The notes beneath the pieces were generated by a model that was not told the origin of the DNA, searched no databases, and worked only from the letters and a program-made list of their open reading frames with translations. Of a stretch of DNA of 33,912 nt, positions 9,994-33,912 are shown in pieces. The position numbers and the translations under genes were made by a program. This DNA comes from a virus. How positions within the stretch are numbered: the first letter of the stretch is position 1; every line of letters begins with the position of its first letter. The stretch spans positions 1 to 33,912 of IMG/VR virus record IMGVR_UViG_3300020201_000007. One strand, written 5' to 3'.

Positions 9994-12825
9994 TTATTTT
10001 GACACTCGTGGCGAATAAGCACGCGCTGAATAGCTGAGAGACTGAATTTCACAGGACTCGGCGGCCACGGAGTGAACGACTGTCCCTTGTATAAAAGTAC
10101 CCCTACAAATGAGCACTGGGACATACGTTCTGGCAGGCTGAGAAGCTTGAGTCGTGAGCACTGAATTAATAGAGTCACCACCCCAGAGCGAACCCCACTC
10201 AAAACCCCATCCAGACTGCGCTGAATTGTTTTGAGACCACGCGGTATCGATTGACGTACCTGAAGAGTCGTTCGAAAATGATATCGTCAAAGCGCTCGCT
10301 GTGCGGTTCCGAAACGAGATAATAAACTCCGAGAATTGTTTCCAACGTGAAACATCTCCCAGCGTTAATGGGCTCGTCTTGATTGCCGACCGTATCGGTT
10401 TGAACAGTTCAAGCACGTCAAGAGCAATCCAAGATACGGGGTTTCTAAAAGTGTAAATCGGCGTCCCGGTCGCGCTGCTTATCGAGAGTATCTGGTTAAT
10501 CGTTCCCGTCGCTGCGTGAAATATCGAGTCATTGACTTCAATTGCTACCGGTATTGTAAATGACAATTCACAGGATAACGGGGTTATGATAATAGCGCTC
10601 GAACCAGCGAACGATTTTTCTGCAAAATCCAGTCTGTTCTGAAGCTTCCGTTCTTTCGTCAGCTCCGCAATCACGTTTCCCAGAACATAAAGCTTGTCAT
10701 CCGACGAAAGAACAATTGAGTCATTAAACGTATTCGTCCAGGTAGACCAAGCACTAGTCACTGTATTAAAGCAGTAGACAACATCAGCCGAGTTTGAATT
10801 TGGGTTCATCGTTGAGAGTAGATAGAGCCGCTCTGATTCGTATGAAACAGCGTTGGTCTCTGTCGCAATATTCGACTTTCCGATGATTGCAGTAAACAGA
10901 GTTTCGATATTCCGCGAAAGCACTTGAGCGCCCGCATCACTCGCCGCAACTACGCCCTGATTCGAGAGCATATATACGGAGTTGTTCAAAACAGACACTG
11001 AATCGGCTGCAACACAGATGATAGTCGAGTCGAGCTGCTGAACTGAAAAGGTACTCGGCGAGTTTCCGCGAATAACAAAAAGGCCGTCGGCTTTTATAAC
11101 GAGAAGACTATCGCGCAGTGCGACAATTCGAATAATGGCGGAAGTCTTAGCGCCCACTGGGATAGTGTATACCCCCGGCACTGCCTCCGGCTGCTGGGGT
11201 TTTGAAAAGTAAACCGCGTTCTGCTCAGTCGAGTTATTCGACGTGACTTGCGTTCCCGCCGAAAAGCTTGCGGGAAGCAAAGGGCTGAATGCACTCGCTG
11301 ATGTATCGGTATTGGCCCGCACGCTAAAAGCGACACCGGCTAGCGTCCTAGACTGTAACAGAAACTGACCAAGAAGAGCGTCACCCGATGAGAGATAATA
11401 CCCGTTGCAAGGGCTGCTTGAGTCGCGGTTAATCGCCTTACAAAGACTTTTGGCAGTCGCAGTAATAGCCGACGATATCGTTGTCGAAGTTGAATTAGTC
11501 AATTGGAAATACGAGAATCCCGACGCGTCAGGATATCCAAAATTCCAGGTTACAGCAGACGATACGCCCGTGAATCCGGCCGTCGGTGCGGAGGTAGTCG
11601 CTATGTATCTTCTAGTCGTAGCGCCCTGCTTGATTTCAATGAAGTCAGCAGCCGCGAATGTAGCAGCAGCTACCGTGACGATTGCTAAATTCAAAGACTG
11701 AAATGAAGCCGTGTTACCGAAGAACATACAGTCTTGAAAAACCGCAATATCTGTAGCAAACGGAGGTCTAAGGTTTGATTTCGCTATCCCTTCTTGACTC
11801 GAATTAGTGTAAAGTGAAGCGTCCTTAAAAAGCTCATTAATCGTGTCAGTGAAGGTTATAAACTTTGCAGTGACTTGAGCGCTGAGAACATTCGCTTGAA
11901 AGATGAGCTGCCCATCATCCGACACGGTAGCGATAGACGAACCCGGCTGAGTCGTTCGGTATACCTGATAGAAGTACTCAGTCGTTGCCTCACTTGGCAG
12001 CGAGAATTCGAGAATCGGGGTTCGGAAGACTCCGAAGTTTAGCGTGCCCGTTGAAGTCGGCGCGGAGGTCACTACGAATGTAAAAGAGTTGGCCACTACC
12101 GATGCTACCGTCCAAGTGCCGTTGGGCGGGTTAGTACCCGTTGCGCCGGAAATTACAACAGTGTCACTAACCGAAAGAAGAGCGCTCACGCCAGTTAAAT
12201 TGACAGTCACTGTAGTCGTGACGAACGTATATGAAGCTTGCGTCACGCCATTCAGCCACGCATTCGAACGTGTCGATATCTCCGACGGTGCGCCGATTAC
12301 CTTATTCGAGTTTGCGTCTAGGCGGCCGAACAGAACACGATAACCCACGGCATCATTCGGCTTGAGCACGCCAGTTCGAACAGCGCTGTTCGTCGAGATA
12401 TCGAGGTCAAGACCGCGCGGAATTCCCGCTTGCAACACTGTTGCACTCGACGATTCAAGCTTGCGCACACCGTCCGCTGTTGCAACGTATAGATTCCCGT
12501 TCGCCTTTGCACTCCGCGCCTTCGAACCAGCGTTGATTGTCATTGCGCCCGAAAGACTAGTCAGCGCACCCGTTGAGGTATTGACGCGTGAAATCAAGTT
12601 ATTTTGGCAGACGAAAAGAAAGCCCAGGTACTCTAAAAGTGTCGTCGGGTTCGTCATTGTCGCAGCGGCCGTCAACGTTGAAAATCCTCGGCGCTTTCGA
12701 ATAATACCATCGTTTGCGAAAACGACATTTTCGGCTTGCTCAAATGAGCCGTCGGGAACTGAAAACGAATTCGCTTGAACGTTTAGCCCTAGCGCTGATG
12801 CAATCGTTATCTGCTGTAGTGGCAT
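9994..12825 (-). CDS. Nozzle-like tail tube protein, 943 residues
   Basis: A large beta-rich protein. Its N-terminus, with SFSVPDGSFEQAENVVFAND followed by GIIRKRRGF, resembles podovirus tail tubular/nozzle proteins of the T7 gp12 type, where a conserved opening of this kind starts the propeller domains. I chose the ATG at 12825 over an in-frame GTG at 12834: AGGTGG precedes the ATG and the upstream adaptor stop overlaps it as TGATG. Around residues 190-270 is a Thr/Val-rich, Ig-like insertion (TVTVNLTGVSALLSVSDTVV) that could be surface exposed. The protein would form the tail tip through which DNA leaves. Family-level assignment is from pattern, not a search. Confidence 0.65.
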   Translation of the reverse strand: MPLQQITIASALGLNVQANSFSVPDGSFEQAENVVFANDGIIRKRRGFSTLTAAATMTNPTTLLEYLGFLFVCQNNLISRVNTSTGALTSLSGAMTINAGSKARSAKANGNLYVATADGVRKLESSSATVLQAGIPRGLDLDISTNSAVRTGVLKPNDAVGYRVLFGRLDANSNKVIGAPSEISTRSNAWLNGVTQASYTFVTTTVTVNLTGVSALLSVSDTVVISGATGTNPPNGTWTVASVVANSFTFVVTSAPTSTGTLNFGVFRTPILEFSLPSEATTEYFYQVYRTTQPGSSIATVSDDGQLIFQANVLSAQVTAKFITFTDTINELFKDASLYTNSSQEGIAKSNLRPPFATDIAVFQDCMFFGNTASFQSLNLAIVTVAAATFAAADFIEIKQGATTRRYIATTSAPTAGFTGVSSAVTWNFGYPDASGFSYFQLTNSTSTTISSAITATAKSLCKAINRDSSSPCNGYYLSSGDALLGQFLLQSRTLAGVAFSVRANTDTSASAFSPLLPASFSAGTQVTSNNSTEQNAVYFSKPQQPEAVPGVYTIPVGAKTSAIIRIVALRDSLLVIKADGLFVIRGNSPSTFSVQQLDSTIICVAADSVSVLNNSVYMLSNQGVVAASDAGAQVLSRNIETLFTAIIGKSNIATETNAVSYESERLYLLSTMNPNSNSADVVYCFNTVTSAWSTWTNTFNDSIVLSSDDKLYVLGNVIAELTKERKLQNRLDFAEKSFAGSSAIIITPLSCELSFTIPVAIEVNDSIFHAATGTINQILSISSATGTPIYTFRNPVSWIALDVLELFKPIRSAIKTSPLTLGDVSRWKQFSEFIISFRNRTASALTISFSNDSSGTSIDTAWSQNNSAQSGWGFEWGSLWGGDSINSVLTTQASQPARTYVPVLICRGTFIQGTVVHSVAAESCEIQSLSYSARAYSPRVSK

Positions 12826-13745
12826 CAGTTCCACCTATTGCGGCTGCGATTATAACCGCGATTGAGAAACCCATTGTGATTTACAATTTTCTGCTGAGCA
12901 CCTTTTTGACGCGGGCTTAAAAGTGTCAGCATCGCCTGCGTTTTTTCCGTGAGCTTTTGGCCTGATGCCTGAAGCCCTTCAAAGTCACCGAGACCCTCTA
13001 GCAATCGGCACTCGACCGCTTGAGCAAGCACCTGATGCATTTCCCTTGGTAGATTTATTACCGGTGTTGTTGTTGCGGGACTAAGCCAATCACCAACAGC
13101 TATACTTGTCGGAAGCGCTGCGAAAAAGATATTCAGCCCAGAGATGTTGGTCACGGTGAAATCAATTTCGAGAATCGCATTTCCAAAAGCGCCTTGAATA
13201 AAATCGCACACTCGCCCGACAATAATAGTCGAAGGCACGGCCGATACGGTTATGAAATTACCAGCGGTGTTGATTGCGGTTATCACGGCCGCATTCGCAA
13301 CATCAGTCAATGATGAGCACTGAATTTCATACTTAACTTCAAGGCTAGCAGTGGCTGAATTCGGCGTCGGTACGATGATGATATTATCACCCTCGAAAAA
13401 GAAGCCGCTAGATGTTCCCGTTGTCTGCACATTGAGATACCGATTCGAATCTTCTGGCTGAATATAAGGCTGCAGAAATCTGTTCGCTCCCTGCAAAAGG
13501 GTCACCTGCCTCACAGTTCGCCCTATCGCTCTAGCAGGCACAGGATAAGCCCGCTGAAGCGCTACGAGGGGAACGGTGGCCGCTCTGACAAGATATTCTT
13601 GACGCATCGACAAGAGCACAGGCAGCAATTTAGTCTGTGTCTCTTCGTCAGCCAGCGCAAGCATATCGACATCAGTAAATCGGTTTTGGTTCGCAGGTAC
13701 CGCTATCCCTCGTTTAATCGATGCTAGCAATTCTGTCGTGTTCAT
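12825..13745 (-). CDS. Head-tail adaptor-like protein, 306 residues
   Basis: Located between the small gene at 13750 and the nozzle-like gene. The N-terminal half is helical (VDMLALADEETQTKLLPVLL). The centre is a beta-rich insert of about 110 residues. The C-terminus has INLPREMHQVLAQAVECRLL and a Lys/Gln-rich helical tail, a layout like podovirus gatekeeper/adaptor proteins (T7 gp11 or P22 gp4 type) that bind beneath the portal. The insert between the helices is larger than in the smallest adaptors. The stop and the next start overlap as TGATG. The assignment rests on layout and context. Confidence 0.6.
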   Translation of the reverse strand: MNTTELLASIKRGIAVPANQNRFTDVDMLALADEETQTKLLPVLLSMRQEYLVRAATVPLVALQRAYPVPARAIGRTVRQVTLLQGANRFLQPYIQPEDSNRYLNVQTTGTSSGFFFEGDNIIIVPTPNSATASLEVKYEIQCSSLTDVANAAVITAINTAGNFITVSAVPSTIIVGRVCDFIQGAFGNAILEIDFTVTNISGLNIFFAALPTSIAVGDWLSPATTTPVINLPREMHQVLAQAVECRLLEGLGDFEGLQASGQKLTEKTQAMLTLLSPRQKGAQQKIVNHNGFLNRGYNRSRNRWN

Positions 13746-13749
13746 AGGC

Positions 13750-14007
13750 TCACTTCATTTTGATAATTTTTTTTGCATCAAACTTTGGAATTGAACCTTT
13801 TTTAATCGCAGCAAGAGAGATTGTAATTGTCGGTTTCTTCTTCACCGGCGCTGCAATCACTTCGTCTTCAATCGCATTCTCTTTAGCATCATCGATAGAC
13901 TCGGAGACTGTTTCTTCGTCCATCTCTTCATCGGCCTTTGGCCCGCGCATCATGACTTGCATTTTCTTAATCAGTGTCTCCAAAACTTTTTTCTTCACGT
14001 CATGCAT
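13750..14007 (-). CDS. Unknown 85-residue charged protein of the structural block
   Basis: The ATG at 14007 (MHDVKKKVLETL) follows AAAGGAAA; an upstream in-frame start at 14043 has no such site. The N-terminal third is a basic amphipathic helix, the centre is very acidic (ADEEMDEETVSESIDDAKE), and the C-terminus is basic (PVKKKP, KFDAKKIIKMK). Small proteins of this kind often sit between tail fibre and adaptor genes in podoviruses. A minor virion part or assembly helper is possible, but no function can be assigned. Confidence 0.65.
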   Translation of the reverse strand: MHDVKKKVLETLIKKMQVMMRGPKADEEMDEETVSESIDDAKENAIEDEVIAAPVKKKPTITISLAAIKKGSIPKFDAKKIIKMK

Positions 14008-14052: not shown

Positions 14053-17000
14053 TCATGCGATTCTGACAGCTCGCACAGTAAAGTAATAGCTGCCAGTGAA
14101 GCCGGAATGGTTCGCAGCAAACAGTTTCCCTCGGAGGTTGTAGCTTGTAGCAGCGGGAACTAATACTGTCGTCGTATTTGCTCTTGAGTCCGCACCGCCT
14201 GATGATGCAGTCGCCGTCCAGCCTAAGTTCCCACCGCTCAGGTTAACTGTAGGCCCCCACCCGTCGGTAGTGTCAGTGGTCAACACACCAACCCGCAACC
14301 CAGACGTCGTTCCGCTTGTAGCTTCAATGTCCATTGAAAAAGAGACAAGCCAGAGCCCAGAGCCGATTGTGCACTCGACGACACTCCCGTTGAGCGCCCA
14401 TCCTGTCGTTACTGCCGTGTTCGTAACGAAACTTCTAAGCGCCGAGCCGGTTTTCACTTCCCCGACATACCCCGCAGGCTGCGCAAGTCCATCTGTGCGC
14501 CCGACAATGTTAGGTGAGCCTATAGGAAACCCGACAACTTGGCCGCCGGATACTTTTTCGACTCTGTAAAAACCTGCCGATGTCGACCAGCTCGCACCAA
14601 CCTGCGGCCTCTGCTCGAACGCCATTGTTAATTGAGTATTAGAACCCGTTACTGATTCAAGGCCCATTCCTGCGGTTCCGACAACCAGTTCGATTGTAAA
14701 AAACCCTGGGAGCCCAGCTCCGATGGCTGGTATCCAAGGCCCTGATTGCGCTCTCGCTACTGTGATTAAAAAAACATCCGTCGGCTGAATAACTGTCGTA
14801 AACTGAAGCCGTTTTCGCCTTTTTGCTGTTAACGCAACGGGCAATGATGAGCCCATTGCACCGTAGGCGAATGCTACTGTATTGTCCGCATCGGTAGTGT
14901 CGCTGTTACTGGCGTACTCTGAGACACTCCTATCACCCGCTGTTACGTTACTCGACCAGCCGACGATGGGGATTATAACATCAAGAGTTACTGACATGTT
15001 AGCTGACAGCGCAACAGGAACCGTTGCGTTCCAGTCACCTTGCCCATTCGGCCCGTATGGCGTCATTTGTCTCGATGTGTTAAGAAGCACCCTTCCCTTC
15101 CAAAGCGTGCCCGTTGCCGTATTGACAATACTAGCTTCACCTACCCAAGCATTGTTCGTGCCGAATCCGCCTTCCTGCGCTGGTATCTTGGTAAAGTCTG
15201 GCGTTAATTCTGCCGGAAGTGTGAAAACTTGAGTGCCGTAACCTGATGCTGCTGTTACTTTTACGACCGTCCGAATGTGAGCGTTTTGGCCAATTCTGGA
15301 ATACACACTCGCGACCGTTGGAGTTGCGCCAAAACCTGAAACAGTGATGCCTGTGGTTATGATTGGGTCGGTCAAAGCACCCGTCTGCATCAACACTTGC
15401 GGCCCAGTGAATAAAGTGTCGAATCGCACCGCTACACTGCCTGCTAGGCTTCTCGGTCTCACTGCATAAAGGTCAGAAGGAGTAATGCTATCTGGCACCC
15501 AGAAGCCGTTAAATTTTGATGTTCCCGTTGGGAGTTTTGCACTAGGAGGAGTTGCCGCTGATGCGTTGCCTGCAACGCTTATAATGCTTTGGTGAACACC
15601 CGATGAGTTGTACCTGACTACGACTACATCCCAATTTCCATCAGCAGTAACGCCGAGAATATCGAAGTTCAACATCACTGGTTTGCCGAGGTCTGCACCT
15701 TCAAGAGCGAAGGCGGGGAACTGCACAAACGATGTACCTGTTGAGTTAGATGTCAGTGCTGTTGTGAGGTAGTTTGTAGTCCCTCTTAAGTCTGAGTTTG
15801 TTGAGCTTGTAACAGCAGATGCACCAGCATCTGTACCCGTATAAAACGCAGTTAAAGAAACAAGGTTAGCGGTTGTTGAAGCAAGGTTTGAAACTGTTCC
15901 AGGAGCTACAGCAGCATTAGCATACGCTCGAAGATAGTTCTTAACCGGCTGCTCATTAAGGCCGCCACCGATACTCTGCCAAACACTGTTACTGTATCCT
16001 TCGAACTCGTTGGCATCGGTATTGTGACGTATCATCCCGACAGTAGTTAGGCCCGAGCGGTTAGCTACTGTTCCCGACGGTATTGCAAGAGCACCTGTGA
16101 TTGCTGCCGTTGATGAAACTACGGTCTTATTCAAGAGCGTTTCAGTGGCATCTTGAGTTACAATAACACCTGAAGCTGGGAATGTAGCAGTCGAGGTGAT
16201 GCCCGTTCCACCGCGTGTTCTGTCGAGCAGCGCTTCACTCGAAAGCACACCTCCGGCCGTGTTGATAATGACATGGTTTGCCGTACCCACTGCGAGTTTT
16301 GTTCTCGCAATCGCGGCCGCTGAGTTGATATCAGCGTTCATTATTGAGTCATCTACAATGTTTGCAGAGGCAATTGTTATTGCCGTCGGCAAAGCGCCAG
16401 TAGCAAGTTTTGACAGAGCAATTGCTGCTGAAGCGTTCACATCAACATCCATTATTGAATCGTCGACGATATTAGCCGACGCGATTGTGATTGCTGTTGG
16501 CAGAGCACCCGTTGCTAGTTTCGAAAGTGCAATAGCAGCGGAAGCGTTAATGTCTGCATTGAGTATTGTGTTTGAAAGAGCAAGTTTTGAATACGCAATA
16601 GCTGCTGACGCGTTGATGTCGGCATTTACTATCGTGTTTGAAAGAGCAAGTTTCGTGTAAGCAATTGCTGCTGAAGCATTTATGTCTGCATTGACGATTG
16701 AATCGTCGACGATATTCGAACTGTTGACTGTGATGGCTGAAGGCAAAGCGCCGGTAGCTAATTTTGATAGTGCGATTGCCGCTCCTGCTGCAACGTCCGC
16801 ATCTAAAAGAAGAGCAGAAGAAAAAACACCGGTCGCGCTAGATTTTACCAAACCTACGCCCAGAGTGTTAACTCTCATTGATGAGAATTGAGGGTTAAGG
16901 CCTACAAAGTCAGATTGAATTTTCCAACCATCACCGTCAAATTGAGCGACAATACCACCGAAGTTGTCATTGATAACAAAGCTTGCCGAGCCGTTAATTA

Positions 17001-17331
17001 ATTGGCCGCCGGTAGCGGTAACGGTAATATTGTTCGTTGCAGCGTCACCCTTAGCGTCAATGACTGAATAAAGAATTCCAGTCACACCAGCGGGAAATAC
17101 TACTGATACCGCGCCCGGTGTTGTTAGATTCACGGCCACTGCATAATCTGTCGCAGTGAAGTTTACAGGGGTTGTTAGTGCCGTACGGATTGCCTGTCTC
17201 TGCACTGTAGTTGTCGCTGCGCTTGCGCCGAGCGCTTGCAGATACGCCGTTAGATTTGTCGCCCAACCATTTTCACCGGCCACCGATGGGATCGAGTATG
17301 TCACGCCCGCAAAGGACACGTTCACTGCCAT
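14053..17331 (-). CDS. Tail fibre / receptor-binding protein, 1092 residues
   Basis: The largest gene. The start at 17331 (MAVNVSFAG) follows AAGGA; a start at 17367 lies inside the terminator region and is unlikely. Domains in order: an N-terminal beta-rich part likely to attach to the tail; a shaft with six degenerate copies of a repeat around A-(D/x)-(I/V)-NASAAIA-(Y/L)-(S/T)KLA, alternating with spacers that include NIVDDSI; a Ser/Thr/Ala-rich beta middle; and two C-terminal jelly-roll-like parts ending ANHSGFTGSYYFTVRAVRIA. Trimeric fibres commonly show such repeats. No lyase or sialidase motif is obvious, and no intramolecular chaperone is recognised. It would recognise the host surface. 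Confidence 0.8.
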   Translation of the reverse strand: MAVNVSFAGVTYSIPSVAGENGWATNLTAYLQALGASAATTTVQRQAIRTALTTPVNFTATDYAVAVNLTTPGAVSVVFPAGVTGILYSVIDAKGDAATNNITVTATGGQLINGSASFVINDNFGGIVAQFDGDGWKIQSDFVGLNPQFSSMRVNTLGVGLVKSSATGVFSSALLLDADVAAGAAIALSKLATGALPSAITVNSSNIVDDSIVNADINASAAIAYTKLALSNTIVNADINASAAIAYSKLALSNTILNADINASAAIALSKLATGALPTAITIASANIVDDSIMDVDVNASAAIALSKLATGALPTAITIASANIVDDSIMNADINSAAAIARTKLAVGTANHVIINTAGGVLSSEALLDRTRGGTGITSTATFPASGVIVTQDATETLLNKTVVSSTAAITGALAIPSGTVANRSGLTTVGMIRHNTDANEFEGYSNSVWQSIGGGLNEQPVKNYLRAYANAAVAPGTVSNLASTTANLVSLTAFYTGTDAGASAVTSSTNSDLRGTTNYLTTALTSNSTGTSFVQFPAFALEGADLGKPVMLNFDILGVTADGNWDVVVVRYNSSGVHQSIISVAGNASAATPPSAKLPTGTSKFNGFWVPDSITPSDLYAVRPRSLAGSVAVRFDTLFTGPQVLMQTGALTDPIITTGITVSGFGATPTVASVYSRIGQNAHIRTVVKVTAASGYGTQVFTLPAELTPDFTKIPAQEGGFGTNNAWVGEASIVNTATGTLWKGRVLLNTSRQMTPYGPNGQGDWNATVPVALSANMSVTLDVIIPIVGWSSNVTAGDRSVSEYASNSDTTDADNTVAFAYGAMGSSLPVALTAKRRKRLQFTTVIQPTDVFLITVARAQSGPWIPAIGAGLPGFFTIELVVGTAGMGLESVTGSNTQLTMAFEQRPQVGASWSTSAGFYRVEKVSGGQVVGFPIGSPNIVGRTDGLAQPAGYVGEVKTGSALRSFVTNTAVTTGWALNGSVVECTIGSGLWLVSFSMDIEATSGTTSGLRVGVLTTDTTDGWGPTVNLSGGNLGWTATASSGGADSRANTTTVLVPAATSYNLRGKLFAANHSGFTGSYYFTVRAVRIA
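16285..16812 (-). repeat. Fibre shaft repeats, six copies
   Basis: The coding repeats encode AAIA-x-(S/T)KLA six times. Three units carry a long spacer with TGALP(S/T)AIT and NIVDDSI; others carry the short spacer ALSNTI(V/L)N. Similar DNA in adjacent copies (for example around 16360-16450 and 16450-16540) would let recombination lengthen or shorten the shaft. Confidence 0.8.
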
Positions 17332-17348
17332 TATTAAAATTCCTTTAT

Positions 17349-17397
17349 AAAAAAAACCCCGGCGCACCGAACCAAGAAACGATTCTGAACACCGGGG
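17349..17397 (-). terminator. Intrinsic terminator after the major capsid gene
   Basis: Read on the minus strand, CCCCGG (17397-17392) and CCGGGG (17362-17357) pair with further wobble pairs inward, and are followed by eight T (17356-17349). It lies 20 bases after the capsid stop and just before the tail fibre's ribosome site. It probably trims transcription so that capsid protein is made in excess over the downstream tail proteins. The loop is long (about 29 bases before inner pairs), so efficiency may be partial, as needed if one promoter serves the whole block. Confidence 0.75.
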
Positions 17398-22783: not shown

Positions 22784-23025
22784 CGCCTCCGCTCTTCTTG
22801 CCCTTCCAGCTTTTCAATGCGTTTCTGCATCATCTCAATTGTATTCAAAATCACCCTGCTCTGACTCGACACGTCAGAGATGCTTTTGTTCAACTCTTTA
22901 ATTTCAAGATTCATGCTCTGCAATGAAGTAACAGCAGTGGCTAAGAGAATTGTACACGCACCACAAAGCGCTTTGACAACCAAATCCGATATCCAATTGA
23001 CATTTTCTTGCATGTCCTTTTGCAT
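22780..23025 (-). CDS. Membrane-anchored coiled-coil protein after the endolysin, 81 residues
   Basis: The start at 23025 overlaps the endolysin stop as TAATG; an in-frame ATG 12 bases upstream is the alternative. Residues 12-30 form a membrane helix (VVKALCGACTILLATAVTSL), followed by a coiled coil (LEIKELNKSISDVSSQS onward) ending in a charged KLEGQEERRR. Location next to the endolysin with one anchor and a coiled coil makes it a good inner-membrane spanin or accessory holin candidate. It competes for that role with the protein at 21756-22022. Confidence 0.65.
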   Translation of the reverse strand: MQKDMQENVNWISDLVVKALCGACTILLATAVTSLQSMNLEIKELNKSISDVSSQSRVILNTIEMMQKRIEKLEGQEERRR

Positions 23026-24245
23026 TACAAACCCCACTCAACCGAAAGTGTTTTAGGGTCATGTTCTCTTAGTGCCGCAACGAGTCTTTTCATTTCTTTT
23101 TCATCTTCGAGCACAACGCAACCGGCCGAGCCCATCGCTCTTGAAATGTTAGCATCAATGTGAAATCCAAATGCGTTTCTATCGTCGCCGAACTGCGCAT
23201 GAAGACCGATCCAAACTGGCCCGAGACCTTCACCCCAGGAGCCAGTGTAGTTGTCTCTTCCGTTCACAAATTCGATTTGACCAATTGTGTACTTGCCTTG
23301 AGGTATTGGCTCAAGGTTACCGGGCACGCTCTTCGGGTCATTTGGCTTGCGAAAGTTTTGTGCGCCGATTGCACCCGATGCAACAAGGAAATACTCATCT
23401 CCAATACTTAGATCTAACCGCGTTAATCCAGACCATAAACCCGTCAGTGTGTCTTTAGTTCGAGACAGAACAGCGCTTGAGATAACGGCAGGCTTCGGCT
23501 TTTCGACATTGACACCGGATGTCAAATTTCTGTCGACCCACAGGTTCATCGATTGCAAAGTATTTGCGCCGAATATTGAATGCGGGCAGTCAGTACCACC
23601 GCTTAAAAACCGGTGACCCGTAACGGCTGAAAGCGGTAACCGGTACTCACTCAGAAGGAAGTTACAGAGAGCAGCACTAGCTACGCTCTGCGCTTCGGTC
23701 ATCACATCGCCCGGCAGTGCCACATGCTCAATTCCGATTGAGTCATTGTTAGCACCGGCTGCGTGCCAAGCTTTCTCAGTGTCTGCACAGAACTGCCAAA
23801 TCTTGCCATCTGTCCCTACTAGATAGTGCGCTGAGACTTGTGAAGCGGGATTTGCGAACCATGAGATCGTTCCTTCGGCATTTGCGCTAGTCGTGTAGTG
23901 CATGACGATTCGCTTAATAGCCGCGCCATTCCTGCTCGACTTGTTCGGTGTTGACGCACGAATCACAATGGGTTTCGAGAACGGCCGACCGGTGCCGACG
24001 GGTTTTGCGGGCGCGGGCAATGTGCTCGTGTGAAGCACAGGGTCAGATTCTTTCGTTGGGTCATATGACATCATCGTAGTCGGAGCATCAGAGCGTTGAA
24101 ACCACCGCGTGATCACGTGAGCGCTCCATTTGATATCAGCTGTCGAAGTAGTGTCAATGTTGATTTTTTCGAGATATTTTCGTTCGTTCCCAATCATCAG
24201 AAACAGCGTTTCGACGCTTCCCAGTTTTTTCAAGATCCAAGTCAT
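23025..24245 (-). CDS. Two-domain endolysin: amidase plus L,D-transpeptidase-like domain
   Basis: A 406-residue peptidoglycan hydrolase. Residues 108-230 match the Amidase_2/PGRP fold: His116 (VMHYTT), Trp160-His161 (KAWHAA), Glu173 (SIGIEHV), His211 (TGHRF) and Cys220 (DCPH), giving the zinc site His116/His211/Cys220. This domain would cut the bond between N-acetylmuramate and L-alanine. Residues 265-405 resemble the YkuD L,D-transpeptidase fold: PIPQGKY, then His362 (FHID) and SAGC with Cys376 as likely nucleophile. It has no signal peptide, so it needs a holin. About 100 N-terminal residues are unassigned. It is unusually long for a podovirus amidase endolysin. Confidence 0.8.
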   Translation of the reverse strand: MTWILKKLGSVETLFLMIGNERKYLEKINIDTTSTADIKWSAHVITRWFQRSDAPTTMMSYDPTKESDPVLHTSTLPAPAKPVGTGRPFSKPIVIRASTPNKSSRNGAAIKRIVMHYTTSANAEGTISWFANPASQVSAHYLVGTDGKIWQFCADTEKAWHAAGANNDSIGIEHVALPGDVMTEAQSVASAALCNFLLSEYRLPLSAVTGHRFLSGGTDCPHSIFGANTLQSMNLWVDRNLTSGVNVEKPKPAVISSAVLSRTKDTLTGLWSGLTRLDLSIGDEYFLVASGAIGAQNFRKPNDPKSVPGNLEPIPQGKYTIGQIEFVNGRDNYTGSWGEGLGPVWIGLHAQFGDDRNAFGFHIDANISRAMGSAGCVVLEDEKEMKRLVAALREHDPKTLSVEWGL

Positions 24246-24761: not shown

Positions 24762-24962
24762 TTACCCGCCATTCAGAATTCTGTGCACTAAGAGCAGAAG
24801 CTCAATGGACTTCGTGCCTGTCTGCCGCTGTGGGTCACAGAGATAAGACCAGAGCAGAGCCTTCATATTCTCCTTTTCATCCGCTAGTCTCCAATATTTC
24901 ATCGAGTAGCTCTCAGCTGTTTCTACAACTTTTGCAGTCACCGGCTCACCTTCTTCTATCAT
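24762..24962 (-). CDS. Unknown 66-residue protein, MIEEE series 3
   Basis: Begins MIEEGEPVTAKV, again with the shared start sequence. The rest is helical (ESYSMKYWRLADEKENMKAL) with a hydrophobic C-terminal helix (SIELLLLVHRIL). No family recognised. It overlaps the upstream membrane protein by ATGA (24959-24962). Its body is unrelated to those of the other two MIEEE genes, so only the start region is shared. Confidence 0.6.
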   Translation of the reverse strand: MIEEGEPVTAKVVETAESYSMKYWRLADEKENMKALLWSYLCDPQRQTGTKSIELLLLVHRILNGG

Positions 24963-25156
24963 CGCGTCCCCAGATATATAACTCGACCAATAAGTAGTCC
25001 GAAAGGCACGCTCAAGATAACCCAGAGCAGCACGAAATCAGAACGCGAGGGGTTATCAACCCAATCCCAAAAACCGGCTGCCTGAAGGCCAATTGGCAAG
25101 AAAAACATGCCCACAATAAGGCACAGAATCCAAAGTGGTTCATTATCTTTTTTCAT
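24959..25156 (-). CDS. Two-span membrane protein, 65 residues
   Basis: ATG at 25156 (MKKDNEPLWI) lies two bases after the methyltransferase stop; the longer reading frame from 25216 would overlap that gene and is less likely. Two membrane helices are plain: LWILCLIVGMFFLPIGLQAA and VLLWVILSVPFGLLIGRVIY, joined by a short polar loop with WDWVDNPSRSD. It should sit in the inner membrane with both ends in the cytoplasm. The function could be lysis-related or superinfection-related; nothing in the sequence decides. Confidence 0.65.
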   Translation of the reverse strand: MKKDNEPLWILCLIVGMFFLPIGLQAAGFWDWVDNPSRSDFVLLWVILSVPFGLLIGRVIYLGTR

Positions 25157-25158
25157 CT

Positions 25159-26451
25159 TCACTCTCTTTCGGTATCCGATGTCTTGAATGAATTCGGCGC
25201 AATCCATTTTTCGCATTTCCCGCTACTCAGCGGGATTTTAAAATCAAGACTAAAGTCGCTCGTCGTTGCGGTTAACATTTCTTTCTGACAAATCGCCCTT
25301 GAAATTTCAACTATTCGATTTGCCAACTTCCATGCGAGTAAGGGGGGAACAGCATTTCCAATTGCTTTGTATGATGAAGAGGCGCTTGTGACCCCTACGA
25401 ATTCAAAGTCATCAGGGAATGTTTGTAGTCGCGCACATTCACGCACAGTGAGTCGTCGTTGCTGAAATTTTGTCTCTTCCAATTTGTTGTTAATTCCACC
25501 ATTTTGAGCGGACAAACGACGAAATTCAATGTTTCCATGATGTTCACTTCTTATTGTTGGAGCAGGCCTATCAATTCTGACTTCAATTTGACCTTGAGAA
25601 CCATTGTCTAAATATCTACATTTAGAAAAGTGCTGTTGAGATTGATCATCCGATTGATTAGGTTCATCTAGTCCACTGAATGCATATTTTGTCGTCGGGA
25701 CTATTCCTTGATTTCCAAGGTGGGACTTATCGGGAAAAAACGATGGCAATTGTTTTAAAAACACCGCTCTTTCGAAATTTTTTGCGATATCATCGATTCT
25801 TACGCCGATTACAATCAGCCTTTCCCGTTTCTGTGGGATACCATATTCGGCACAATTGACCAGTTGCCACTGGACTGAATAGCCCAAGTCTTTCAGTCGA
25901 TTCTTCAAGTCTGAAAAGACGGTACCATTCTCTGCCGAAAGGAGACCTTTCACATTCTCAGCAATTATAAATCTTGGCTGGAGCTGCTCAATTGCTTTTA
26001 ACATATATATATAGAGTGACCCCCTAGACACTTTGCTTGAAGTGTTTATTAGTCCTGTGTGACTACGATGAGATAACGTGCCTCTTCTTGCCCCAGCAAA
26101 ACTGAAATCTTGGCAAGGAAATCCTCCCGATACAAGGAATGGCCGCTCGAAAGACTTTAGCACTTGAGACTCAACTATCTCTACAATACTTTGCGACTCG
26201 TACTGCCCTAGCCTACTCCTTTTATTAAAGTATGCCTTATGAATATCCATAGCTGAAGTACAAATATCATTGATAAATACCGTTTCTATCCCCGTGGATT
26301 CAAGCCATATTTTTCTTGTTTTTCCGGTTCTCTTTAAATCCAGATAGCTACTAAACGTCTCAAATCCGCCCTCGATCCCCAGATCCATTCCACCACAGCC
26401 TGAAAAAAAAGAAAAATGTCGCATTGTGCCTACATTTGTTTCTTTAGTCAT
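25159..26451 (-). CDS. C5-cytosine DNA methyltransferase
   Basis: A 430-residue Dcm/HhaI-type enzyme that transfers a methyl group from S-adenosylmethionine to cytosine. Motif I is FSFFSGCGGMDLG (residues 13-25), motif IV GGFPCQDFS (109-117) with catalytic Cys113, motif VI ENVKG (165-169), motif VIII QKRERLI (207-213), motif IX RRLTVRECARLQTFPDDF (332-349) and motif X YKAIGNAVPP (361-370). All are intact. The target-recognition part lies at about 245-330 and its site cannot be read. No restriction endonuclease gene is adjacent, so it likely protects phage DNA from host restriction. By eye it is more AT-rich than its neighbours, a hint of separate acquisition. ATGA overlap with the upstream paralog gene. 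Confidence 0.93.
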   Translation of the reverse strand: MTKETNVGTMRHFSFFSGCGGMDLGIEGGFETFSSYLDLKRTGKTRKIWLESTGIETVFINDICTSAMDIHKAYFNKRSRLGQYESQSIVEIVESQVLKSFERPFLVSGGFPCQDFSFAGARRGTLSHRSHTGLINTSSKVSRGSLYIYMLKAIEQLQPRFIIAENVKGLLSAENGTVFSDLKNRLKDLGYSVQWQLVNCAEYGIPQKRERLIVIGVRIDDIAKNFERAVFLKQLPSFFPDKSHLGNQGIVPTTKYAFSGLDEPNQSDDQSQQHFSKCRYLDNGSQGQIEVRIDRPAPTIRSEHHGNIEFRRLSAQNGGINNKLEETKFQQRRLTVRECARLQTFPDDFEFVGVTSASSSYKAIGNAVPPLLAWKLANRIVEISRAICQKEMLTATTSDFSLDFKIPLSSGKCEKWIAPNSFKTSDTERE

Positions 26452-26690
26452 TGTTCACTTTCTACTTGCTCGATAGCGTCGACTAAAGAGCACGGCAAAA
26501 TTCTTCCGCCGTTACCCGGAATACCATCAATCTTTATATCGACTACATATCTAGTACCGATGTGCATGAACCATTCGTTCTCGTAATCGTCCTTTTCGTA
26601 TCTCCAAAAGAAACCGAAATCATCTTCGAAAACTGCGCCATTATCAGGCTTTACTCTTTCAGAAAACTGAGTCCACGATTCTTTAATCAT
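26448..26690 (-). CDS. Tandem paralog A (short, N-module only)
   Basis: The 80-residue last copy of a five-gene tandem array, and the most diverged. It keeps W-x-QF-x-ERVKP at residues 6-15, the F-x-D-x-x-G-x-x-W element, and PCSLVDAIEQVE at the end, then stops at SEQ without the C-module found in copies B, C and E. It contains extra aromatic and charged residues in the variable middle. Function unknown. Probably soluble. It shares one base with the start of B (TAATG) and four with the methyltransferase. Confidence 0.8.
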   Translation of the reverse strand: MIKESWTQFSERVKPDNGAVFEDDFGFFWRYEKDDYENEWFMHIGTRYVVDIKIDGIPGNGGRILPCSLVDAIEQVESEQ

Positions 26691-27046
26691 TATTCAACCC
26701 AAATTTCCTTCGTTATACGATTGCCGCTTTCGTCGAGCGCTTGTGTCTCATAAAGGTCTACGTCATTGCGCCAGTAAAAACCTACCGTATTTATGTAACA
26801 GTAAAACGTTATTTTCTTTAGCTTCGGCTTTTCGACGTTCTCAATTGCATCGACCAAAGAGCACGGTATAAAATTACCGGCGGAAATTGGGGAATCTGAA
26901 GCCTGAATGCTCACATCCATCTTGGGCATCAGATTAAAGAAGCCGTTACACCAATAGCACCACTCATTCCCATAAATATCTTTAAATTTTTGCCCATGGG
27001 CAGGCTTAACTCTCTCTGCAAATTGTGACCATGTTTCTTTAATCAT
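26690..27046 (-). CDS. Tandem paralog B (N- and C-modules)
   Basis: A 118-residue copy with both modules. N-module: ETWSQFAERVKPAHGQKFKD, a variable middle, then AGNFIPCSLVDAIENVE. C-module: KPKLKKITFYCY, an aromatic variable part, and ETQALDESGNRITKEIWV. The DNA for the last part (26697-26734) is identical over 38 bp to that of copy E (27633-27670), while the rest differs, a sign of recent conversion or duplication. The function of the family is unknown to me. Its start overlaps copy C by eight bases. Confidence 0.82.
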   Translation of the reverse strand: MIKETWSQFAERVKPAHGQKFKDIYGNEWCYWCNGFFNLMPKMDVSIQASDSPISAGNFIPCSLVDAIENVEKPKLKKITFYCYINTVGFYWRNDVDLYETQALDESGNRITKEIWVE

Positions 27047-27398
27047 GGTCTATAACCCAAACGTCTTTAGTTATCCGCTCGCCGTTCTCGTCTAGAGCCT
27101 GCGTCTCACTATATACTGAGTTCTTGCACCACAAAAACCCTGACACACCTAAGTAACAGTAATACGTTATTTTCTTTAGCTTTGGCTTTTTGACTTGTTC
27201 GACGTGTTCGATAGCATCGACGAGAGAGCAAGGAAGAATTTTACAGTACAGACCTTCTTTCATGAGTGTCGTTTCATTCGTGTCTTGCGTGAAATCGCCA
27301 TCGTGGTGTCTCCAAACTTCACCGTAAATATCCTTAAATATCTGCCCGAATGAAGGATTAACTCTCTCGGCGAATTGCGTCCATGTTTCTTTACTCAT
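27039..27398 (-). CDS. Tandem paralog C (N- and C-modules)
   Basis: A 119-residue copy with both modules: ETWTQFAERVNPSFGQIFKD and ILPCSLVDAIEHVE, then KPKLKKITYYCYLGVSGFLW and ETQALDENGERITKDVWV. The middle of its N-module (residues 30-50) is quite different from B and D, so this segment varies fastest. The C-module retains Tyr and Trp positions. Both junctions are eight-base overlaps, at 27039-27046 and 27391-27398. Confidence 0.82.
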   Translation of the reverse strand: MSKETWTQFAERVNPSFGQIFKDIYGEVWRHHDGDFTQDTNETTLMKEGLYCKILPCSLVDAIEHVEQVKKPKLKKITYYCYLGVSGFLWCKNSVYSETQALDENGERITKDVWVIDHD

Positions 27399-27624
27399 TG
27401 TCTTCCCTTTCTACGTGCTCGATAGCGTCGACCAAAGAGCACGGTATGAAATTTCCTGCCGAAATATTGGTCATGCTAGCGGAGATACCTACATCTTCAT
27501 GCGTAGTCAGATAAAAATACTGGTACCTGGAATAAAGCCAAACTTCACCGAAAATATCCTTGAATTGTTGGCCAACTTCAGGCTTCACTCTGTCTGCAAA
27601 TTGTGCCCATGTCTCTTTACTCAT
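27391..27624 (-). CDS. Tandem paralog D (short, N-module only)
   Basis: A 77-residue copy that ends after AGNFIPCSLVDAIEHVE with EREDNE, so it lacks the C-module. Its end resembles the end of copy E (NDNE), including the overlap sequence, as if an internal deletion had joined the module end to the gene end. It is otherwise well conserved (ETWAQFADRVKPEVGQQFKD). The N-module alone is therefore probably a folding unit. Confidence 0.8.
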   Translation of the reverse strand: MSKETWAQFADRVKPEVGQQFKDIFGEVWLYSRYQYFYLTTHEDVGISASMTNISAGNFIPCSLVDAIEHVEREDNE

Positions 27625-27973
27625 TGTCGTTCACCCAAATTTCCTTCGTTATACGATTGCCGCTTTCGTCATACGCGATAGGCCAGCCCACGTTATCATC
27701 TGTGTTAAAATAATAAGCAGTCATAAACAGGTAAGCGTAGAGCGTTACCTTCTTAAGCTTCGGTTTCTCAACGTGATCCACTGCGTCAAGCAGAGAGCAA
27801 GTTATGAAATTACCCTCGTCAGTTAATCTAGGCGAAATGCTTATTTCAAGCTCAGGAAGAAGAGAAAACAATCCGTAATTATAAAGCCAATCGTTGCCAT
27901 AAATATCTTTAAATTGTTGATCATCTACTGGCTTCACTCTCTCGAAAAATTGTTTCCACGTTTCTCTAGTCAT
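27617..27973 (-). CDS. Tandem paralog E (N- and C-modules)
   Basis: The first copy in transcription order, 118 residues. N-module: ETWKQFFERVKPVDDQQFKD and GNFITCSLLDAVDHVE. C-module: KPKLKKVTLYAYLFMTAYYF and YDESGNRITKEIWVNDNE. Its core has drifted (T for P before Cys, LLDAVD for LVDAIE) but its last codons match B exactly at DNA level. The start ATGACTAG overlaps the HTH gene's stop by eight bases, tying the array to that regulator. Confidence 0.82.
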   Translation of the reverse strand: MTRETWKQFFERVKPVDDQQFKDIYGNDWLYNYGLFSLLPELEISISPRLTDEGNFITCSLLDAVDHVEKPKLKKVTLYAYLFMTAYYFNTDDNVGWPIAYDESGNRITKEIWVNDNE

Positions 27974-28151
27974 TTTTCACCTTCTCCTCTTTCTCATCAA
28001 TCCATCGGTGCATCATTTGCAGCGCCCATCTCGGGCACTGAAGCGCACCTACATTCCATCGGCTTACTGTCGTCTGATGCCGGCCTAATTTCGAAGCTAT
28101 TTTCGTGGCCGTCCAGCAAAGTCTTTTTTTCAAATCTCGGAATTCATTCAT
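27966..28151 (-). CDS. Mini helix-turn-helix regulator heading the paralog array
   Basis: A 61-residue likely DNA-binding protein. ATG at 28151 (MNEFRDLKKRL) gives the same eight-base overlap with the upstream gene as elsewhere here; a longer frame to 28223 would lie deep inside that gene. The helix-turn-helix is TATKIASKLGRHQTTVSRWN (about residues 14-33), followed by a Pro-containing helix (CPRWALQMMHRWI). It resembles short Cro-type proteins with no dimer domain of note. As the first gene of the array's transcript it may regulate it. Confidence 0.7.
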   Translation of the reverse strand: MNEFRDLKKRLCWTATKIASKLGRHQTTVSRWNVGALQCPRWALQMMHRWIDEKEEKVKND

Positions 28152-28422
28152 CAACAGGCACCGCGACGATGGGCTTAAGCTTGAAGCCCTTTTTGCGGCC
28201 GGGCTTTGCCTTCGGCACTTCAACAGTCTCGCAAGTCGCTGCTATCTGGCGGAGCATTTCACCGGCTTCTTTAGCGCCCGCTGTTGGTACCTGAAAGACT
28301 TTCCAAGTGCCGCCATCTTGTGTTATTTCGAACAGTATATTCCCACATTCATTCGTTATTTCAAAGGAAAAATAAGCGCCTTCAATTGTTTTTTTAATGA
28401 TGGTCTTGTCGGTGATTATCAT
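28144..28422 (-). CDS. Unknown 92-residue protein with basic linker
   Basis: The N-terminal half is beta-rich (AYFSFEITNECGNILFEITQ, then TWKVFQVP). The middle is helical (KEAGEMLRQIAATCETVEV), and the tail is a basic Pro/Lys segment, PKAKPGRKKGFKLKP, recalling but not matching an AT-hook. It could bind nucleic acid. No family is recognised. It overlaps the upstream 40-residue gene by ATGA and the HTH gene by eight bases. Confidence 0.7.
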   Translation of the reverse strand: MIITDKTIIKKTIEGAYFSFEITNECGNILFEITQDGGTWKVFQVPTAGAKEAGEMLRQIAATCETVEVPKAKPGRKKGFKLKPIVAVPVDE

Positions 28423-29211: not shown

Positions 29212-30034
29212 TTTCGTCTATCCAATATTGTGGTGCTGTTAAAATCATATGTGTTGTATTCGGGTCGAATTGTGCGTCACCGGTCGCTCTGGCTTGCTGA
29301 AACTTGCGGTAATTCTCAATTGCTTTTTCAACGACGATATTAGCGCAGCGCATGGTATCGTCGTCTATCGTCATGACTCTTGCGGTGTAAGGAGGTACTG
29401 TCTGGAACATAAAAAAAACAAACGGCCACGATTCAGTTTCTGGCCTTATTTTCGACATGCCTCGTTTGTACCACGCTGCCTGAAGAGGGTATCCGTATTT
29501 CAACGCGTGAAAGCCTAGCGACCGTTCAGAAAAATCATCCGAACATGTCTTGATGTCGACCAGCAGTCTGTATCTTTCGCTCACGGCATCAATGAGCGCC
29601 TTGCCGTGAAAGCCGTCTTCGTCCCAAAGATAGGCTTGCTCATTTTTTGAGCACATCAGAACGTCCGCGCCCAAGCTTTTAATGATGTTGAAATATGAAT
29701 TTTCGATCTGCGAGAGCACCCGGCTATCGTGAGGTTTCAACCAGTGTTTCACATCTGGCATGCTCTTTTTTAAAGCAATTCCTTCTTTAGTCGCGAAACT
29801 AACATCATGCTGCAATATGTGGCACTCTTCACTAAATCTTTTTGGCTCAAGAAATTTCATATGCACGATGGAACCAAGGTCTAGGGCTGCGGAGCCTTTT
29901 TTAGGGCTCTCAAGCGATGATGCATAGTGCGCCGGACTCTTGGCGAGTAATTTAATCGCTGATGAGCCTACCGCCGTCAAATCGTGGTAATCGGCTTCGC
30001 TGATATCTCGCTGATGTCCAAAAGTCCGATTCAT
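29204..30034 (-). CDS. RecE-like PD-(D/E)XK exonuclease
   Basis: A 276-residue nuclease of the exonuclease VIII/DUF3799 type. It shows YHDLTAVGSSAIKLLAKSPAHY at the start, DLGSIVHM with His58, Asp149 (KALIDAV), the core LLVDIKTC with Asp160 and Lys162, and YPLQAAWYKRG with Gln185. The set is intact, so it should resect double-stranded ends. It pairs with the RecT-like protein. The length equals the catalytic C-terminal domain only; the long N-terminal part of E. coli RecE is missing, as in most phage versions. The start overlaps the HTH gene's stop by ATGA. Confidence 0.85.
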   Translation of the reverse strand: MNRTFGHQRDISEADYHDLTAVGSSAIKLLAKSPAHYASSLESPKKGSAALDLGSIVHMKFLEPKRFSEECHILQHDVSFATKEGIALKKSMPDVKHWLKPHDSRVLSQIENSYFNIIKSLGADVLMCSKNEQAYLWDEDGFHGKALIDAVSERYRLLVDIKTCSDDFSERSLGFHALKYGYPLQAAWYKRGMSKIRPETESWPFVFFMFQTVPPYTARVMTIDDDTMRCANIVVEKAIENYRKFQQARATGDAQFDPNTTHMILTAPQYWIDENE

Positions 30035-30261
30035 GCTTCACCGGCAAGCTTGAGGTCGACGAATCGCCCGTACTGCAATTCGATCTCTCGCAGTTCGGCT
30101 TTTAGAATCGACATTATCGCGGCTAAGTATATCGCCCTTATCGGACGCTCCGAGCGCATCCAAGTCCCGACTGTCTGTCGCGAAACTCCTAACTCTTTCG
30201 CAATTAACGCTTTCCCTACAAAACGTGATGTGAACAATAATATCTCGGCATCGACTGTCAT
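30031..30261 (-). CDS. Mini helix-turn-helix regulator next to the origin region
   Basis: A 76-residue Cro/C1-type protein: helix-turn-helix FVGKALIAKELGVSRQTVGT (about residues 14-33), then WMRSERPIRAIYLAAIMSIL. The ribosome site AAAGGGG precedes ATG. It is the first gene of the recombination operon and faces the 511-bp noncoding region, so it may bind there and control its own operon. There is no N-terminal protease-cleavage or C-terminal oligomer domain, so it is not a typical lambda-type prophage repressor. Confidence 0.75.
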   Translation of the reverse strand: MTVDAEILLFTSRFVGKALIAKELGVSRQTVGTWMRSERPIRAIYLAAIMSILKAELREIELQYGRFVDLKLAGEA

Positions 30262-33537: not shown

Positions 33538-33870
33538 ATGACAGTTATCAAAACCAACGAATATAGCTCGAACAATGCGCGGCTACACTACGAAAACACC
33601 GGCCTTGAGATTACAATCAACAACGACTTTTGCGATAAGCTTGGGTCAAGTCCGGAGGATCTGGTCGAGTTAGCTGAATCATCTGACTTAGAGACGTTCC
33701 TAAACGCTCTACCGTACCAAAACGAACGAGCAGACTGGGAAGAGGCAGGCACTGAAGTCTATGAAGACATTAGAACATATTGCGAAAAGGGCTGCTGGAT
33801 GCCTGAAATCAACGAATGGCATCAGCATGTTGTTAGAGTGTCTGATTTTTCCGATCTCGCACACCCGTGA
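33538..33870 (+). CDS. Unknown 110-residue acidic protein
   Basis: Not recognised. It opens MTVIKTNEYS after the third shared leader. It is strongly acidic (PEDLVELAESSDLETFL, then ADWEEAGTEVYEDIRTY) and ends with MPEINEWHQHVVRVSDFSDL. No membrane span. High acidity, small size and an early, separately controlled position are seen in some DNA-mimic or host-takeover proteins, but this is only a resemblance. The gene crosses the contig join; its last 85 bases are repeated at 1-85. Confidence 0.75.
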   Translation: MTVIKTNEYSSNNARLHYENTGLEITINNDFCDKLGSSPEDLVELAESSDLETFLNALPYQNERADWEEAGTEVYEDIRTYCEKGCWMPEINEWHQHVVRVSDFSDLAHP

Positions 33871-33912
33871 GAATGAACCAGCGTTCTACTTGCTGAAACA
33901 AAACGCCTCGCA
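33786..33912. repeat. Terminal redundancy, right copy
   Basis: Identical to bases 1-127. It covers the 3' end of the 110-residue gene that starts at 33538 and the first part of the spacer that continues at 86-168. Anyone counting genes should collapse the two copies. Confidence 0.95.

Follow-up and report, generated by a model that had tools for sequence, protein, structure and literature searches.

Phage T4 encodes TifA, an 85-amino-acid (aa) inhibitor of ToxN. Under selection its gene is amplified by recombination, and its homologues differ both in sequence and in their ability to inhibit ToxN (PMC9391042). For phage T6, SegB-driven amplification of anti-defence loci has been reported (PMC13096335). 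Here we describe an array of five tandem genes, on the minus strand at 26448-27973, in a 33,912-bp stretch of viral DNA that makes up the entire IMG/VR record IMGVR_UViG_3300020201_000007 (hereafter the window); the array occupies 1,526 bp, or 4.5% of the record. Like TifA, the array proteins are small phage proteins (77-119 aa against 85 aa) of an apparently accessory region that come in multiple copies via recombination, and they vary in sequence as the TifA homologues do. TifA, however, was amplified in experimental evolution, whereas the array copies are only 31-63% identical in protein sequence and their genes overlap. The likeness to TifA is one of principle, and no database match connects the two, no direct sequence comparison having been made. 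The T6 loci are likewise accessory phage genes amplified in tandem, an amplification that raises counter-defence; the array copies differ in being diverged rather than fresh repeats, and a reading of the list of open reading frames (ORFs) showed no homing endonuclease next to the array. The array copies, with or without a C-terminal module (C-module), and the gene that precedes them are:

27966-28223, minus strand: putative helix-turn-helix gene preceding the array, 85 aa, TTG start, weak Pfam helix-turn-helix matches
27617-27973, minus strand: copy 5, 118 aa, long form with C-module; opens the array
27391-27624, minus strand: copy 4, 77 aa, short form without C-module
27039-27398, minus strand: copy 3, 119 aa, long form with C-module; middle differs from the other four copies
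26690-27046, minus strand: copy 2, 118 aa, long form with C-module
26448-26690, minus strand: copy 1, 80 aa, short form without C-module

An original prediction, made from the letters and ORFs of the window, had placed five tandem genes at 26448-27973, with a C-module in three of them and none in two. The five ORFs do lie there, all of them on the minus strand, and the C-module is present in copies 2, 3 and 5 and absent from copies 1 and 4. The three motifs that it named are present in all five copies, with one correction: the cysteine of the CSL motif falls at about residues 57-67, slightly before the claimed position of about 70. That the copies form one family is supported by BLASTP, in which every one of the 10 pairs matched (E 2e-11 to 4e-44; 43.9-128 bits). 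Chance similarity was rejected as a source of these scores, since the top score among 1,200 shuffled control sequences was 24.6 bits, and a collapsed or duplicated assembly was rejected because the copies share no more than 31-63% of their residues. The proposed pattern of kept borders around a variable middle in the N-terminal module also stood, the borders being more alike than the middle in 10 of 10 pairs (30/45 against 2/22 in one example pair; Fisher p 0.011 to 2e-7, uncorrected for the relatedness of the copies and with regions chosen by eye). The middles of copies 2, 4 and 5 are mutually similar (12/27, 8/24 and 8/24 identical), and that of copy 3 matches the other four copies at just 0-2 of 19-22 positions. 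A six-row tree of the five copies and the copy of a large phage introduced below has no supported branch (51/24); the order of duplication is thus unreadable from it, and the large-phage copy is not established as an outgroup.

The genes are tightly packed. Overlaps of 8 bp occur at four junctions (the possible helix-turn-helix gene with copy 5, then 5/4, 4/3 and 3/2), copies 2 and 1 overlap by 1 bp, and the stop of copy 1 overlaps the start of a downstream methyltransferase gene by 4 bp. The overlap of copy 5 with the gene before it argues for read-through expression of the array in the window. The product of that preceding gene reaches E 0.006 in its top Pfam helix-turn-helix match, and every such match lies under the curated cut-offs.

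The array carries signs of exchange between copies, which the original prediction had not included. At the 3' end, copies 2 and 5 have a stretch of 38 bases in common, yet the two proteins are 54.7% identical; none of 200 synonymous recodings reached a run of this length. The recoding test covered 8 of the 15 pairs formed by the five copies and the large-phage copy; three further pairs were above expectation (matched in 2-3 of 200 recodings), and four were not (49 to 105 of 200), including both tested pairs with the large-phage copy. We read this pattern as DNA exchanged among copies inside the array. The short copies 1 and 4 are nearest to each other at their 3' ends (across the CSL border dS, the synonymous divergence, is 0.32, and 61 bases align at 90%). 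Both most likely lost the C-module, given the full length of the one copy in the large phage, and their resemblance suggests one C-module loss followed by copying between the two.

Selection on the array was assessed as the ratio of nonsynonymous to synonymous divergence (dN/dS) by the Nei-Gojobori method over the 15 pairs. Values were 0.13-0.39 for the codons of the N-terminal border (8 of 15 pairs readable), 0.03-0.55 for the CSL border (12 of 15) and 0.18-0.53 for the C-module (5 of 6). The borders and the C-module are under purifying selection, and the array genes have thus been maintained. The middle behaves differently: five of 15 pairs are undefined and nine have dS above 1, and the sole readable pair, copies 2 and 5, gives a dN/dS of 1.19 over 24 codons. 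With synonymous sites saturated in this way, diversifying selection in the middle is unreadable, and the original suggestion of "strong selection for several variants" is not demonstrated, 14 of the 15 pairs giving no usable value there.

Downstream, the array adjoins two further genes:

25159-26451, minus strand: C5-cytosine DNA methyltransferase, 430 aa (Pfam DNA_methylase E 1.9e-56; NCBIfam dcm E 5.4e-56)
24959-25216, minus strand: small protein with two hydrophobic segments by hydropathy, 3' of the methyltransferase

By its profile matches the first of these is a clear member of the C5-cytosine DNA methyltransferase family (192.3 bits to PF00145 against a cut-off of 22, over profile positions 1-323 of 324; 190.6 bits to TIGR00675 against a cut-off of 100.65). 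It thus belongs with the phage C5-cytosine methyltransferases (PF00145, dcm), whereas the array proteins do not. The PCQ, ENV and GNAVPP motifs of such enzymes are visible in its translation. The large phage aside, its top-ranked published phage relative is a methyltransferase of a Blautia phage, at 39.8% identity. The N-terminus, MTKET, resembles the start of the array proteins themselves: the methyltransferase opens with MTKETNVGTMRHF, in which the family's first residues are followed by what appears to be the enzyme's own MRHF start. Such a family-like extension was found at none of the 12 readable starts among 13 other methyltransferase loci inspected, and the methyltransferase frame therefore appears to have been fused to the start of a family gene.

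The link between array and methyltransferase, on which the original prediction had leaned, recurs in an otherwise different and much larger phage. Relatives of the array family were found in only two IMG/VR contigs, of 147,886 and 160,071 bp, which are identical across the 10,339 bp compared and are therefore counted as one relative. Judged by its genes this is a large tailed phage, with a cpn60-like chaperonin and a dUTPase. A reading of its ORFs adds a ThyX-like one, a polymerase-like one and very long ones that resemble baseplate or tail genes; the polymerase-like ORF gave no match in a search for host clues. The small phage of the window, for its part, encodes a P22-like portal and a terminase. 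The large phage carries a single, full-length family gene (116 aa; 40-48% identical to copies 2, 3 and 5) that overlaps the start of its methyltransferase gene by 8 bp. The two methyltransferase genes are 99.4% identical in DNA over 1,301 bp (window 25153-26452, minus strand), including 1,114 consecutive identical bases (window 25307-26420, minus strand). Only eight columns differ, two near the start and six within the last 155 columns, and the match extends from one base 5' of the start codon to six bases beyond the stop. To judge from these sequences, the methyltransferase was shared recently between otherwise different phages, with near gene-exact borders; this sharing, with a family gene standing before the methyltransferase, is new beyond the original prediction. 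Downstream of the methyltransferase both phages also encode a two-segment small protein (44.6% identity over 65 aa).

In base composition the shared genes stand apart from their genomes in both phages, as an accessory (moron-type) cassette would. The G+C content is 41.5% in the array and 41.2% in the methyltransferase against 47.0% in the whole window; in the large phage it is 41.9% in the shared block and 44.5% in the adjoining ankyrin part, against 47.5-49.1% in four genome pieces. The distribution fits such a cassette as well, the family being common to apparently unrelated phages and missing from the terminase relatives of the window: its profile matched none of nine such relatives (terminases 37-53% identical; several of the records are fragments), from which we take the family to be dispensable. 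In the large phage the island runs antisense to its long neighbours. It also holds nine tandem ankyrin-repeat genes (G001, L010 4767-9604; nearest sisters 61-77% identical), an assignment for which one of the nine was run against Pfam. These are unusual phage cargo and themselves an amplified array; they resemble the array of the window in being small tandem paralogues, and share an island with a family gene, but ankyrin repeats are unrelated to the array family, and none was seen in the window ORFs by reading.

A second stretch of DNA is common to the two phages:

14905-16122 (within the gene 14053-17367), minus strand: segment of a fibre-like gene, 87% identical to the large phage by DNA match

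The segment spans 1,218 bp (G001 101737-102954), and the two phages also match over some shorter parts of this gene; the comparison covered the window beyond position 13999. The naming as a fibre rests on short matches to proteins annotated as tail fibres or as structural, mostly of cyanophages. That this segment is common to both phages suggests a common host. The 1,218 bp possibly encode a common receptor-binding part.

The statement that no named family fits these proteins was confirmed, in that profile searches of the five copies and the large-phage copy against Pfam, PHROGs, NCBIfam and PADLOC gave no match reaching E 0.001. The top sub-significant values were 0.012 (PHROGs), 0.014 (Pfam, large-phage copy) and 0.16 (NCBIfam, large-phage copy), each such match involving one family member only, and PADLOC returned nothing at E<=1. 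A profile search of the Protein Data Bank (PDB) with the family gave nothing at E<=10, and two scans of GTDB species genomes gave no family match. Against phage records, tblastn with copies 3 and 5 and the large-phage copy as the queries gave no match at E<=1 for copy 3, four weak matches for copy 5 (best E=0.6) and one for the large-phage copy (E=8); plasmids, searched with copy 2 as the sole query, gave no match at E<=1. Of six IMG/VR scans with the family, over 2.9 million contigs, five gave just the two large contigs and one gave nothing; such scans detect short, nearly exact stretches of peptide or DNA and would miss diverged relatives of the family, and records very close to the window may be missing from the searched sets. 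Titles and abstracts in the literature held nothing that we recognised as concerning the array family, which does not prove it unpublished. A tblastn match of copy 1 in a sister phage, L044 (E=0.001), was treated as chance because it is antisense, adjoins a stretch matching the window gene at 9994-12834 and did not turn up in the profile search. Another sister phage, L039 (terminase 52% identical), has three adjacent small proteins starting MKRSEM at about 760-1666. They resemble the array in being small tandem paralogues in an accessory part of a phage and differ in having another sequence, the family profile finding nothing in L039.

AlphaFold2 models were built for copy 2 and the large-phage copy from six alignment rows each. 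The top models have a mean predicted local distance difference test (pLDDT) score of 64.4 and a predicted template modelling (pTM) score of 0.35 for copy 2 (other four models, mean pLDDT 44.5-58.9), and 64.5 and 0.39 for the large-phage copy (other four, 47.7-56.4). At this low confidence, the two long copies modelled are predicted to have the same succession of elements: a helix at about residues 5-13, three strands, a low-confidence middle and three more strands, and the copy 2 model adds a short helix at 64-69. In both, the middle falls below a pLDDT of 50 (residues 43-72 and 45-67). Foldseek against viral models found no match at E<=0.001 (best 0.14 for copy 2 and 0.02 for the large-phage copy), and VIA-align in the PDB gave best Z scores of 2.1 and 2.9, at noise level, both with queries of about 64 pLDDT. 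Low-confidence models with empty fold searches would neither establish a new fold nor exclude anything.

We tentatively interpret the array as an amplified and reshuffled accessory cassette of small binders, likely directed against variable host defence proteins, and hold this interpretation at somewhat under even confidence. The ancestral state was probably a single full-length two-module gene coupled to a DNA methyltransferase gene. Tandem duplication of this small phage gene would have produced copies that recombination reshuffles, within the array as well as across phages that probably infect the same host. A common scaffold would consist of the C-module and the conserved borders, with the middle as the part that differs. 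We envision that the proteins bind and block strain-variable host proteins, likeliest defence proteins, each copy fitting a different variant of the host protein, while the methyltransferase may shield the phage DNA from restriction. What leads us to a cassette against host variability is the combination of scaffold and variable middle, diverged copies that are nonetheless kept, exchange between them, and a shared low-GC block. The diverged copies persist with intact frames and under purifying selection in a 34-kb genome, and the family, methyltransferase and ankyrin genes of the large phage all oppose the strand of their long neighbours, which argues for an accessory island. Several points weigh against this interpretation. 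Profile searches found no similarity to a known inhibitor or defence-related family; diversifying selection is not demonstrated in the aligned sequences; and the 38-bp match could instead stem from a constraint at the nucleic-acid level, against which the recoding control offers no guard. The amplified copies of T4 arise under selection and raise dose, whereas the array copies are old and diverged. Dispensability would be expected of accessory genes whatever their function, and since L039 too has tandem small paralogues, these are not in themselves the mark of an arms race.

A rival account is ordinary duplication and drift of a functional small accessory protein, with spotty gene conversion, a loosely constrained middle loop and no selection for variants. 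Gene conversion is observed, the middle is loop-like in both models by its low pLDDT, and the trio in L039 is another tandem set; yet all five frames are intact and their borders are under purifying selection despite mostly saturated synonymous sites, so all the diverged copies have been retained in a small genome, and we regard drift as an unlikely account. We find it just as unlikely that the proteins serve superinfection exclusion or general host takeover, acting on host or envelope targets outside defence together with the downstream two-segment membrane protein. Accessory islands of this kind often carry such genes, and the membrane protein is retained in both phages; the methyltransferase, however, sits between its gene and the array, the family proteins, judged by reading alone, have neither a signal nor a membrane segment, and several diverged copies make more sense for targets that vary than for one that is fixed.

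The array might also be a diversification device in its own right, a proposal that strikes us as slightly more doubtful still. The junctions and conserved borders would then serve as homology arms for swapping middles, C-modules and downstream genes, from copy to copy as well as among unrelated phages of one host, and would keep the repertoire of small inhibitors changing; the first codons are common even to the methyltransferase. Least probable among the readings weighed here is a role as partner of the C5 methyltransferase, in which a family protein sets its specificity, activation or timing and joint action keeps the genes adjacent and overlapping. A family gene directly precedes the methyltransferase in both phages, with stop/start overlaps of 8 bp (large phage) and 4 bp (window), and the methyltransferase opens with the family's first residues. 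Transfer of one block would yield the same adjacency, however, and five diverged copies for a single methyltransferase are hard to explain. The methyltransferases are near-identical while the adjoining family genes are 40-48% identical, so the two do not evolve together, and none of nine searched records with other methyltransferase relatives (some of them fragments) carries the family.

Were the proteins inhibitors, as the favoured interpretation of a cassette against host variability has it, the array would provide, in one operon, five naturally occurring inhibitors that are related yet distinct, making the part of the protein that sets the target, and the refreshing of counter-defence by recombination, directly addressable. 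Whatever their function, the locus presents a protein family without a relative in the searched libraries, and shows clearly that different phages have recently shared a gene with almost gene-exact borders.

Elsewhere in the large phage, the cpn60-like chaperonin gene (G001, L013 9184-11874) contains internal weak LAGLIDADG/homing-endonuclease matches, which probably mark an intein within this phage chaperonin. The window itself has 127-bp identical ends (1-127 and 33786-33912), so the record appears complete; such ends fit a phage whose genome has direct terminal repeats, or else an assembly that is circular. It also encodes RecT-like, exonuclease-like and primase-like genes. The top match of its terminase is a phage of Silvanigrella, and that of its RecT a phage of Ca. 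Megaira. At 23025-24245 lies an Amidase_2 lysin (E 1.2e-27) whose C-terminal end weakly matches Tlde1 and YkuD domains, a combination that is unusual for a phage lysin. A small protein at 30031-30261 has a sub-threshold YdaS_toxin match (E 4.2e-05; 23.7 bits, cut-off 30) and is likely a Cro-like regulator.

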